In this document: positions 55,370 through 58,971 of the stretch, in pieces
How the letters are laid out: each line of letters starts with the position of its first letter
Position numbering within the stretch: the stretch's first letter is position 1
From: Desulfomonile tiedjei DSM 6799
GTDB taxonomy: Bacteria > Desulfobacterota > Desulfomonilia > Desulfomonilales > Desulfomonilaceae
Direction: 5' to 3'
Assembly: GCF_000266945.1 (NCBI RefSeq)
Contig: NC_018025.1
Coordinates: 5,088,001-5,152,000, forward strand
Length of the DNA: 64,000 nucleotides
Notes under the pieces: generated by a model
What the model saw: only the letters and a program-made list of their open reading frames with translations
What the model was told of the DNA's origin: nothing
The model's database searches: none
Program-made: the position numbers and the translations under genes

Positions 55370-55487
55370 CGATCACATTCGGTTCTGCAATTCCGCATTC
55401 CCGAACAACAAACAAGACTATAGGTGCTCTGCGATCTTCTACGGCCGAATGAAAGGATTATTCTTTGAGAATCAGCGAGGTTTTACC

Positions 55488-55787
55488 ATGATACACATAG
55501 ATGTGCCTAAAGAGAAGCTCACGGCATTCTGCCGTAAACGTCATATTCGTTGGATGGCCTGCTTTGGTTCAGCAGTTCGGGACGATTTTGGACCAGATAG
55601 CGATGTGGATGTTCTCGTGGAGTTCGCACCGGACCATACCCCTGGATGGGAAATAGTTGACATAGAGGAAGATTTATCAGCGCTGCTGGGCGGCAGGAAA
55701 GTGGACCTCATCAATCCCAAGTACCTCAACCGACGGTTAAGAGATCGGGTCCTGGCCGAAGCGGAGGTCCTCTATGCAGAGGGATGA
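55488..55787 (+). CDS. MNT-type minimal nucleotidyltransferase (antitoxin-like), copy 1
   Basis: A 99-residue nucleotidyltransferase of the MNT group, which in type VII toxin-antitoxin pairs AMPylates and silences the HEPN RNase. ATG 55488 has GAGG seven bases upstream. Motif GSAVRDDFGPDSDVDVLVEF: Gly-Ser at about 27-28 and the metal Asp pair (DVD, about 38-40). A HEPN partner normally overlaps the 3' end; here only 11 codons of one remain (55774-55809). So this appears to be an orphan antitoxin of a decayed pair. Confidence 0.85.
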   Translation: MIHIDVPKEKLTAFCRKRHIRWMACFGSAVRDDFGPDSDVDVLVEFAPDHTPGWEIVDIEEDLSALLGGRKVDLINPKYLNRRLRDRVLAEAEVLYAEG

Positions 55788-55809
55788 GATAAGTCTGCAT
55801 CGTGACTGA
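55774..55809 (+). pseudogene. Remnant of a HEPN (DUF86) toxin gene start
   Basis: ATG 55774 overlaps the MNT stop, the normal arrangement for MNT-HEPN pairs, and reads MQRDEISLHRD, like the start of DUF86 proteins, before a TGA. The rest of the gene is not found downstream. Confidence 0.4.
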
Positions 55810-56555: not shown

Positions 56556-56582
56556 GAGAAATTGGCATAAAGGTTGTCGATC

Positions 56583-56873
56583 ATGGAAATTGAACAATTG
56601 ATCAAAGAAAAACGAGAAGAGATATTGCAGATCGCTCACCGACATGGGGCCAAGAATATACGTCTGTTCGGCTCCGTAGCTCGTGGAGAAACGAGGGAAA
56701 CCAGCGACATCGATATTCTTGTTGAAGTTGGCGAAAACCCTTCCCCCTGGTTCCCAGGAGGGCTCATAGCCGATCTCGAAGAATTACTGGGACGGCGGGT
56801 CCATGTTGTCACGGTTGGGGCTTTGCATTCGTATATTCGGGACCGAGTATTGCAGGAGGCGGTTCCCTTATGA
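56583..56873 (+). CDS. MNT-type minimal nucleotidyltransferase (antitoxin-like), copy 2
   Basis: A 96-residue MNT protein, only distantly like copy 1. ATG 56583 follows AAAGG nine bases upstream; a TTG three codons earlier is less likely. Motif NIRLFGSVARGETRETSDID: GS at 30-31 and Asp pair at 42 and 44, then ILVEVGENPSPWFPGGLIAD, where MNT proteins often read FDLIGL. Its stop overlaps the start of a truncated HEPN gene by 3 bases, so the pair was once complete. Confidence 0.85.
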   Translation: MEIEQLIKEKREEILQIAHRHGAKNIRLFGSVARGETRETSDIDILVEVGENPSPWFPGGLIADLEELLGRRVHVVTVGALHSYIRDRVLQEAVPL

Positions 56874-57031
56874 AGGATGATCGGCTATATTTCGTACACA
56901 TCCTGGAGTGCATCGATCACATTTTGCAGTTCACCATTGACGGCACGAATTCTTTCCTGGCTGATCGCAAAACGCAGGTCAGTGGCACCCAGGCTCTGAT
57001 ACCTAAAGGACGGGACAATACATGGAAATAG
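56870..57031 (+). pseudogene. Truncated HEPN (DUF86) toxin gene
   Basis: 53 codons beginning MKDDRLYFVHILECIDHILQ, the typical N-terminal helix of DUF86 HEPN RNases, and FLADRKTQVSGTQALIPKGR. Full-length members are about 110-115 residues and carry the RxxxH active site in the second half, which is missing here. The end overlaps the HicB-like gene start by 10 bases, so a deletion probably joined the two. Confidence 0.75.
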
Positions 57032-57201
57032 CTTTTAACGTGATTGTCGAACGCGATGAAGAAGGATTCTATGTGGCCACAGTTCCAGAGCTTCGAGGCT
57101 GTCATACACAGGCTAAATCATTGGATACCCTCATGGAAAGAATCAGGGAAGCCATTGATTTGTGCCTTGATGAAGCTCACGTTGCCAGCCTCGAGAATTG
57201 A
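57022..57201 (+). CDS. Short HicB-like antitoxin
   Basis: A 59-residue protein with the HicB-type beta-beta-beta-alpha fold: MEIAFNVIVERDEEGFYVAT, VPELRGCHTQAKSLDTLMER and IREAIDLCLDEA. It matches the single-domain HicB group whose DNA-binding tail is absent. No HicA toxin (small dsRNA-binding RNase) is next to it on either side: upstream is the truncated HEPN gene, downstream 190 bp without a gene. AAAGGA lies 11 bases before the ATG. Confidence 0.8.
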   Translation: MEIAFNVIVERDEEGFYVATVPELRGCHTQAKSLDTLMERIREAIDLCLDEAHVASLEN

Positions 57202-57275: not shown

Positions 57276-57325
57276 TTGACTGGCGCGCGAGGAGCGCGTA
57301 TGTTTTCCTTATGTAGGACAACATA
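57276..57325 (+). promoter_or_regulatory. Promoter with overlapping palindromic operator for the DUF6932 module
   Basis: TTGACT (57276-57281) and TATGTT (57299-57304) are 17 bp apart and match sigma-70 elements. The -10 box is the left arm of a 27-bp imperfect palindrome, TATGTTTTCC-TTATGTA-GGACAACATA (57299-57325), 9 of 10 positions paired. A repressor bound there would block the promoter, as is common for toxin-antitoxin and defence modules. The regulated gene starts at 57395. Confidence 0.6.
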
Positions 57326-57394
57326 GAAAAGTGGGGACATAAACAAAGCTTATGTGATAAGATTTCGGGATTAGCTTAGTGGAGGACAAGTTGG

Positions 57395-57970
57395 ATGTTG
57401 TTTCTCCCTCGTGTAATTCCTGATTTCAACGGTGACGGTTACCTTCCTGAAGGAATTTATCCATGTGGTGACAACGGGTTATTTTTCCACTTTGTTGAGT
57501 CTTTTCCAGAAGCCATTACACGTGAGATGATTTTTGATGGTTTCACGAGGTGGAGGGTAGAAATTCGGCCATTAATAAAGGCTATTAGGCAATGGGTAGA
57601 CGGTTCATTCGTCACTAACAAAATGAATCCACATGACGTGGACGTTGTTAGCTTTTGTGATACGGATTATTACAATAGCCTTACCAAAGACGATCAGGAT
57701 GAAATTGATCGTCTGCTAGACGGACAACGTTCTACTCAGTCCGAGTATGCCACACACTCAATCCTGATTCTCAGTGCGCCTTTGGGTCATCCTGAACATC
57801 GGGATTCAGAAATATTTCGTAACCACTACAGAAAGTGGTTGGCTAAGACATATGTTGAAGATCCCGTCACTGGATACAGAGTTGAAACGAATCAACGGAA
57901 AGGCTTTCTGGAAATGACTTTGGGTGAGGAATGGGCTGCACCTATCATTTCGACAGAAAGGATCGAGTAA
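57395..57970 (+). CDS. DUF6932-type nucleotidyltransferase-like protein
   Basis: A 191-residue protein of the DUF6932 kind, distantly related to minimal nucleotidyltransferases. ATG 57395 has GGAGG nine bases upstream. The family start LPEGIYPCGDNGLF is followed by WVDGSFVTNKMNPHDVDVVS, which holds a GS motif (70-71) and an Asp pair (81, 83) in the layout of the pol-beta active site. After it, YATHSILILSAPLGHPEHRD and YRKWLAKTY. So it may transfer nucleotides to a protein or RNA, as MNT antitoxins do; this is inference. Its stop overlaps the next start in TAATG, so it is tightly coupled to an unknown protein. Confidence 0.8.
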   Translation: MLFLPRVIPDFNGDGYLPEGIYPCGDNGLFFHFVESFPEAITREMIFDGFTRWRVEIRPLIKAIRQWVDGSFVTNKMNPHDVDVVSFCDTDYYNSLTKDDQDEIDRLLDGQRSTQSEYATHSILILSAPLGHPEHRDSEIFRNHYRKWLAKTYVEDPVTGYRVETNQRKGFLEMTLGEEWAAPIISTERIE

Positions 57971-58971
57971 TGTCTATCGAAATTGGACATGGCGATCAAC
58001 TGGCTCCTCGGCTCCCGCACGAGATCATGGAAGAATTACGTGATCTTAAGAAGATAGAGGACGTCCTTGCTGAGCAAACAGAAGATACTGCTTCGCATCG
58101 GTTTAGATTGCGTTCTGTAAACAAAATGCGATTAGCCTTACAAGAAGAACTGCATGCCGCTCAATTATTGGGCTCTGATAATGATTTTGAACTCTCTTTA
58201 GAAGGGGAACCGGTTCAAGATCATATGATAGCTGCAAATTTTCTTGGTAGATTTTTGGCAGATTTACAAGAACTTGCAGATCGCGTTACTTTTGCGGCTG
58301 GGGCGACATCGAGAATTAGTGAAGAATTACCAGAAAGTAGCTTGTTAGACAGTAGAATTATGATCACTGGATGGCGTGCTTCGTCATTCACTGTTCAGTT
58401 CAAACTAGTTCCACAAAGACAAACTGATGACCTCTTAGTATCTGAGCGACATAAGATTGCTCTTAGAGATTTGCGGGGACTATTTGATGATGCCACACCT
58501 GATGAAGAGCTCACCGATTTAATTACGCGGTCTGCATCAAGAACCGCTTATCGAAGACTCCTCCGCAACGTTGCCAATGGAGGAGCCACTGTAAAATTGA
58601 GGACAAAGGTTGACCCGTATCCCACCAGACTCAGCGCGGAAAAGGCAGCAGAGCGCACCAGATGGATGGACGTCGCGGAAAAGGAAACAAAGCAGATTCT
58701 AAGAGTGGCTGGCATCCTTGTTGCCGGAAACATAGACGCTCATACCTTTAGGATTAGAACCAAAGAAATCACATATTGGGGTCCAATTGCGCCAGATGCC
58801 CAGCAACAGATACAACAAATTGCTCTGGGGAGTAATGTCAATGCCATGATCAAGCAAATCACAAAATATAAGAGTAAGGTTGACCACAAACCCAGCGTAA
58901 ACTGGACGTTAGAAACTATTTCTGAGGCTCCGAAAGAGAGCAGCGAAGAAACCATCAACTTGTTTGAATGA
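57970..58971 (+). CDS. Unknown 333-residue partner of the DUF6932 protein
   Basis: I do not recognise a family. The ATG at 57970 overlaps the upstream stop by one base. The first 130 residues are helical (PHEIMEELRDLKKIEDVLAE, FLGRFLADLQELADRVTFAA); residues about 130-170 are beta-rich with MITGWRASSFTVQFKLVPQR; the middle is helical and Arg-rich (SASRTAYRRLLRNVANGGAT); and near 250 comes LRVAGILVAGNIDAHTFRIR then EITYWGPIAPDAQQQIQQIA, a small beta-barrel-like unit often seen in C-terminal domains of island proteins. No signal peptide. It would be the effector or toxin if the module acts as a toxin-antitoxin or defence pair; inference only. Confidence 0.7.
   Translation: MSIEIGHGDQLAPRLPHEIMEELRDLKKIEDVLAEQTEDTASHRFRLRSVNKMRLALQEELHAAQLLGSDNDFELSLEGEPVQDHMIAANFLGRFLADLQELADRVTFAAGATSRISEELPESSLLDSRIMITGWRASSFTVQFKLVPQRQTDDLLVSERHKIALRDLRGLFDDATPDEELTDLITRSASRTAYRRLLRNVANGGATVKLRTKVDPYPTRLSAEKAAERTRWMDVAEKETKQILRVAGILVAGNIDAHTFRIRTKEITYWGPIAPDAQQQIQQIALGSNVNAMIKQITKYKSKVDHKPSVNWTLETISEAPKESSEETINLFE

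Follow-up and report, generated by a model that had tools for sequence, protein, structure and literature searches.

A divergent relative of the candidate PDC-M63AB gene pair beside toxin-antitoxin relics

The locus and its surroundings

The window, a stretch of 64,000 nucleotides (G000:C1:5088001-5152000), was taken from the 6.53-Mb genome, in two contigs, of Desulfomonile tiedjei DSM 6799. It carries two co-directional genes, A and then B, whose frames are both intact and which share a single base in the sequence TAATG, the junction that the original prediction had described. The features of the pair are these:

57276-57304, + strand: sigma-70-like promoter TTGACT-17-TATGTT, identified from the letters themselves; likeness to the consensus does not prove that it works
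57299-57325, no strand: imperfect 27-bp inverted repeat over the -10 box, with 11-nt arms that are complementary at 10 of 11 positions and a 5-nt loop
57395-57970, + strand: gene A, predicted DUF6932 / PDC-M63A-like nucleotidyltransferase of pol-beta fold, 191 aa (PF22014, PDC-M63A, AlphaFold2)
57599-57643, + strand: putative catalytic motif of gene A, residues 69-83, DGSFVTNKMNPHDVD, with D69, G70, P79, D81 and D83 invariant in 70 relatives
57755-57757, + strand: codon of H121 of gene A, in the column of the third catalytic Asp (alignment of 70 relatives)
57970-58971, + strand: gene B, PDC-M63B-like partner, 333 aa (partner profile, 56.2 bits; AlphaFold2)
58015-58170, + strand: predicted N-terminal helical hairpin of gene B, residues 16-67 (AlphaFold2 secondary structure)
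58183-58677, + strand: predicted alpha/beta core of gene B, residues 72-236, common to PDC-M32A and PD-T4-10B (profile-profile comparison with controls)
58684-58932, + strand: predicted C-terminal OB fold of gene B, residues 239-321 (VIA-align against the ssDNA-binding protein Rim1)

The promoter is as had been proposed, with TTGACT at 57276-57281, a 17-nt spacer, and TATGTT at 57299-57304. The palindrome said to cover its -10 box is also present, but it stands out little: Markov shuffling of the 196 intergenic nucleotides gave an equally good inverted repeat 7 times in 400, 14 of 326 tiles cut from the window carry one as well, and no inverted repeat of that length lies upstream of the nearest relative (L076). 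For these reasons we regard the palindrome as weakly unusual and suggestive only. Autoregulation through it, which the original prediction had also put forward, is unsupported, given these weak statistics and a search that found no DNA-binding HTH family in either protein.

Two MNT-type nucleotidyltransferase genes that match PADLOC PDC-S09 lie upstream (55464-55784 and 56574-56873). Each is followed by a short, truncated frame resembling the start of a HEPN/DUF86 protein, giving loci at 55464-55800 and 56574-57031; the truncated frames read MQRDEISLHRD-stop and MKDDRLYFVHILECIDHILQF...-stop. Both MNT loci read as relics of type VII toxin-antitoxin loci. A HicB-like antitoxin gene (57022-57198; HicB_lk_antitox, 32.1 bits) starts inside the HEPN remnant and has no adjoining HicA, and on the other side of the pair, on the opposite strand, is a gene for a MutY-like glycosylase. 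The toxin-antitoxin island in which the pair had been placed therefore exists, but mostly as relics, namely the two truncated MNT-HEPN loci and a HicB without HicA.

Two protein families inherited together

Gene A is a DUF6932 protein, as it had been called, scoring 94.9 bits against Pfam PF22014, and it matches the PADLOC candidate model PDC-M63A at 63.9 bits (E 3.7e-18). The pol-beta-type motif reported for it can be read in the translation as GSF...DVD. Among the 70 aligned relatives R43 is invariant along with D69, G70, P79, D81 and D83, and W67, S71, T74, K76, K169 and G170 are nearly so. Foldseek found no significant match in the PDB for the AlphaFold2 model (pLDDT 92.9), although the best rows were mostly pol-beta-type enzymes; VIA-align placed nucleotidyltransferases in its top rows (AadA, Z 5.5 with rmsd 3.9 over 116; 2rff, Z 5.5; MNT antitoxins, Z about 4.2), and the DUF6932 family profile made weak contact with CD-NTases in the PDB (E 0.28). 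Our fold call combines the motif with VIA-align scores of up to 5.5 and nucleotidyltransferases on top, the Z values being middling by themselves. We predict that gene A encodes a pol-beta nucleotidyltransferase with a conserved metal-binding motif; it has the predicted fold and first motif (GS..D.D) of such enzymes and two of their three catalytic carboxylates, D81 and D83, with H121 in place of the third.

The column of that third carboxylate holds Asp in 64 of the 70 relatives, His in five (the window gene, L076, L057, L090 and L094) and Glu in one. Gene A of the window thus appears to be a recurrent His variant, the activity of which is uncertain. With its third Asp lost, and with truncated HEPN beginnings and a HicB lacking its HicA as neighbours, the unit might itself be a decaying relic. 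We consider this very improbable: both frames are intact and their overlap is exact, every other motif residue is present, and the recurrence of His, including in the nearest relative, makes it look like a variant that has been kept.

Gene B used alone as a query gave no match among 297 genomes of the phylum or in the GTDB species contigs, IMG/VR, phages and plasmids, nor did it match Pfam, NCBIfam, PHROGs, PADLOC or the PDB; with the PADLOC models, which include PDC-M63B, no family appeared up to E 10. Two candidate matches were taken as chance, one to Stealth_CR3 (16 bits, below the cut-off of 24.2) and one to ErpA.

The family was reached only through the neighbours of DUF6932. Most DUF6932 genes in phage and plasmid records have a partner of about 300 aa immediately 3', and those in enterobacterial prophages match the PADLOC PDC-M63B models; in IMG/VR, a DUF6932 alignment used as the query picked out 60 loci, and almost every one of them includes a partner of 270-357 aa. 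A profile was built from 41 distinct partners beside DUF6932 in viral contigs, leaving out gene B of the window, and it matched gene B at 56.2 bits (E 1.8e-15 at a Z of 10,000 sequences) from residue 18 to 318, which is model 9-308 of 309. Because a profile made without gene B matches it nearly end to end, gene B is, on sequence grounds, a diverged member of the PDC-M63B family. The claim that it belongs to no known family does not hold, although only a family profile makes the membership visible. Its identity is about 9-19% to full-length members and 33% to the truncated L076. PADLOC model PDLC04747 is matched by 38 of the 47 members of the B-family alignment (A4). Across the B family only G138, S139 and G248 are more than 90% conserved, and no conserved catalytic set was found. 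The centre of gene B that had been described as Arg-rich does contain nine Arg in residues 181-240, a mild excess.

A scan of one genome per species added 59 DUF6932 loci; the loci were found by a motif pattern and so do not amount to an unbiased census. The original prediction had staked itself on the two genes co-occurring across genomes, and they do: after de-replication there are 88 loci, drawn from many phyla, and at 48 of them a B-family partner lies directly 3' of DUF6932, 33 of these 48 with a 4-nt gene overlap. By the virus-only profile such partners occur in Proteobacteria, Firmicutes, Chloroflexi, Planctomycetes, Nitrospirae, some Bacteroidota and the archaeon Ca. Methanoplasma. At 31 loci, nearly all in Bacteroidota, the partner is instead a small protein predicted to form a hairpin, and at the remaining nine it is something else or cut off. 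In an independent sample of 294 genomes from the phylum of the window, 6 have a B-family match; four, the window included, have DUF6932 directly upstream, and in the other two a B-like protein without the N-terminal hairpin is followed by an overlapping PIN-domain gene. Distances among A proteins and among B proteins are correlated (Mantel r 0.93, reached in 0 of 2000 permutations), a value inflated by shared species history. The A and B families are inherited together, in the same order and with an overlapping or near-overlapping junction. The distribution of the pair is patchy and mobile (3 of 42 genomes of the class).

In the Bacteroidota loci (L077-L131) DUF6932 is followed by a predicted helical-hairpin protein of 66-105 aa, apparently a second, undescribed type of DUF6932 pair. 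Comparison of these small hairpins with the N-terminus of gene B gave a probability of 38%, which does not establish homology. XRE and/or ImmA-IrrE proteins are partners at L010, L072, L078 and L132, and a Klebsiella plasmid gene (L012, 3992-5170) has DUF6932 fused to an alpha/beta-hydrolase-like domain.

In four lambdoid prophage loci (mEpX1, PhiR30_1, vB_EhrS_59 and a Klebsiella element) the pair directly follows a cI-type repressor gene in the same direction. This is the slot that rexAB occupies in lambda; the likeness is one of position, and the rexAB proteins differ from the pair in size and order. The two E. coli types of the pair have near-identical copies in 18 and 96 genomes respectively, out of 5,426 complete ones of that species.

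The pair of the window shares with PDC-M63AB its two protein families, their order and the overlap of the genes, gene A matching PDC-M63A itself and gene B the PDC-M63B-type partner profile (56 bits). It differs in the His at the third catalytic Asp, in an overlap of 1 nt instead of 4 nt, in a chromosomal position beside toxin-antitoxin relics, where PDC-M63AB lies in the immunity region of prophages, and in a gene B too diverged for any PADLOC model (up to E 10). Judged by these profile matches the pair is a divergent relative of PDC-M63, one that PADLOC would not report by its own models. When PDC-M63AB was deleted in E. coli NILS69, no defence was seen against the phages tried, a set that its authors note was limited (PMC12409345).

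Predicted structure of gene B and kin of its core

The AlphaFold2 model of gene B (pLDDT 87.9, pTM 0.68) begins with a helical hairpin, continues with an alpha/beta core and ends in an OB fold. The hairpin is missing from the B-like core proteins that adjoin PIN genes, and we propose that gene A may dock on it. Rim1 aligns with the OB fold at Z 9.6 (VIA-align, rmsd 2.1 over 77 residues), and the folds nearest to this domain are those of SSB, PriB and RuvA.

The core leads to other defence catalogue entries. When the gene B model was compared with viral models by Foldseek, the best match was a phage protein named 'DUF6575 domain-containing protein' (E 9.8e-14); a DUF6575 protein matches PADLOC PD-T4-10_B at 96 bits, whereas gene B does not match DUF6575 (PF20215) itself. 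Full-length PD-T4-10B gave nothing against the B family, but the B-family core aligned with the core of five PD-T4-10B-like proteins at an hhalign score of 40.8 and 89% probability, compared with at most 16.2 in 100 column shuffles, 14.9 for the reversed profile and 19.8 for DUF6932. The core boundaries were picked after the predicted structure had been seen, which makes this comparison less independent than the partner-profile match. PDC-M32A was matched to the core of gene B by profile-profile comparison with 97% probability over 251 columns. In PDC-M32AB, another PADLOC candidate, the protein with this core is encoded first, has no N-terminal hairpin and has a partner other than DUF6932.

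Two loci, L141 (347-1764) and L142 (533-1851), have a PDC-M63B/PDC-M32A-like core protein whose gene overlaps a downstream PIN-domain (VapC-like) gene. The pairing with PIN is seen at these two only, since the PDC-M32B-like genes beside five plasmid-borne cores gave no PIN match. The PD-T4-10_B model PDLC04024 also matches, with its C-terminal part, frames of 195-231 aa that lack DUF6575 (L143-L145), so it seems to cover two different protein types.

An OB fold nearest to SSB, PriB and RuvA would suit a pair that is no toxin-antitoxin unit, and instead processes nucleic acids or regulates in some non-lethal way, for example a nucleotidyltransferase that works on the ends of RNA or DNA under the guidance of its OB-fold partner and useful to prophages otherwise. 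Some prophage genes that follow cI have other roles, and the sole published deletion gave no defence phenotype. We nevertheless hold this to be quite unlikely in view of the homology of the core to PD-T4-10B, the association of related cores with PIN genes and the mobile, patchy distribution of the pair.

Polarity and proposed function

The toxin-antitoxin-like or anti-phage role in the original prediction is supported by the core homology to PD-T4-10B, the cores that overlap PIN genes, and the prophage slot after cI. Our preferred reading, held tentatively and at somewhat less than an even chance, is that the pair, as a divergent PDC-M63AB relative, forms a toxin-antitoxin-like unit triggered by phage, in which gene A would be the effector and gene B would dock and sense. 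Gene B would hold gene A through its N-terminal hairpin, while its OB fold and fast-evolving core would detect infection; the gene junction would keep both proteins at matching levels. If gene B were lost, or were bound by a product of the phage, gene A would be set free, and this enzyme would then attach a nucleotide to some target in the cell and halt growth, as in abortive infection.

We infer an effector role for gene A from its constancy: it stays conserved while its partners differ widely, down to those of 66-105 aa. Its motif is invariant in the 70 relatives, in contrast to the B family, in which no catalytic set is conserved. An antitoxin role for gene B is suggested by the two hairpin-less core proteins that overlap a downstream PIN-domain gene, and an anti-phage role by the four lambdoid loci as well as by the core. 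Several findings weigh against the preferred reading: the His at residue 121 leaves the activity of the window's gene A in doubt, the NILS69 deletion changed no tested phage infection, homology between the small Bacteroidota hairpins and the N-terminus of gene B is not shown, and PD-T4-10 has the opposite polarity.

PD-T4-10 is an abortive-infection defence against T-even phages in which PD-T4-10B is toxic alone and is neutralised by PD-T4-10A (Vassallo et al. 2022; PMC9519451). It too consists of two overlapping genes, and the second encodes the alpha/beta core found in gene B. By this analogy, which comes close to the original prediction, gene B would be the toxin and gene A its antitoxin, acting by nucleotidylation, as MntA does on HEPN toxins, or by binding, until phage infection relieved the inhibition. 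The MNT antitoxins among the nearest folds of gene A would agree with such a polarity. In many toxin-antitoxin operons the first gene is the antitoxin. The analogy weakens in that PD-T4-10A is unrelated to gene A (hhalign probability 0.2%) and in that PD-T4-10B has extra domains, a DUF6575 N-terminal part and a DUF7226-like C-terminus, that could carry the toxicity, whereas gene B has no DUF6575 and ends in an OB fold. Gene B also lacks conserved catalytic residues, the Bacteroidota partner is merely a small hairpin protein, and in the PIN loci the core is paired with a known toxin type. On balance we find gene B as the toxin somewhat unlikely.

The MNT-HEPN systems (type VII toxin-antitoxin) likewise join a pol-beta nucleotidyltransferase to a second protein, and MNT structures align with gene A at Z about 4. 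The pair differs from them in gene B, which has no HEPN match and is predicted to fold as an alpha/beta core and an OB fold, and in the DUF6932 family's own residues, the invariant R43 and the nearly invariant K169. Nucleotide transfer by gene A onto gene B, the control suggested in the original prediction, is possible.

A wider proposal can be made, which we rate as unlikely: one fast-evolving core, that of PDC-M63B, PDC-M32A and PD-T4-10B, may be a general infection-sensing module. It would control effectors that are unrelated to one another, among them PIN nucleases and the nucleotidyltransferase of the DUF6932 family, by way of docking segments that can be exchanged, the N-terminal helical hairpin being one. 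On this view DUF6932 proteins would make up a nucleotidyltransferase toxin class of a new kind.

The pair had been offered as undescribed. That is true of gene B inasmuch as no library matches it, but the family is already a PADLOC phage-defence candidate, PDC-M63. The module is real and widespread, and its copy in the window is a variant of PDC-M63AB, new and far diverged, and no new kind of system. DUF6932 is mentioned nowhere in the open-access literature that we searched, and we found no publication in open-access text on the link of the partner core to PD-T4-10B and the PIN-associated proteins, which is our most useful result. Catalogue models miss diverged members such as gene B of the window. 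The range of DUF6932 and its partner extends from archaea to prophages of E. coli, and the core link joins three separate entries of the defence catalogues into one testable superfamily.
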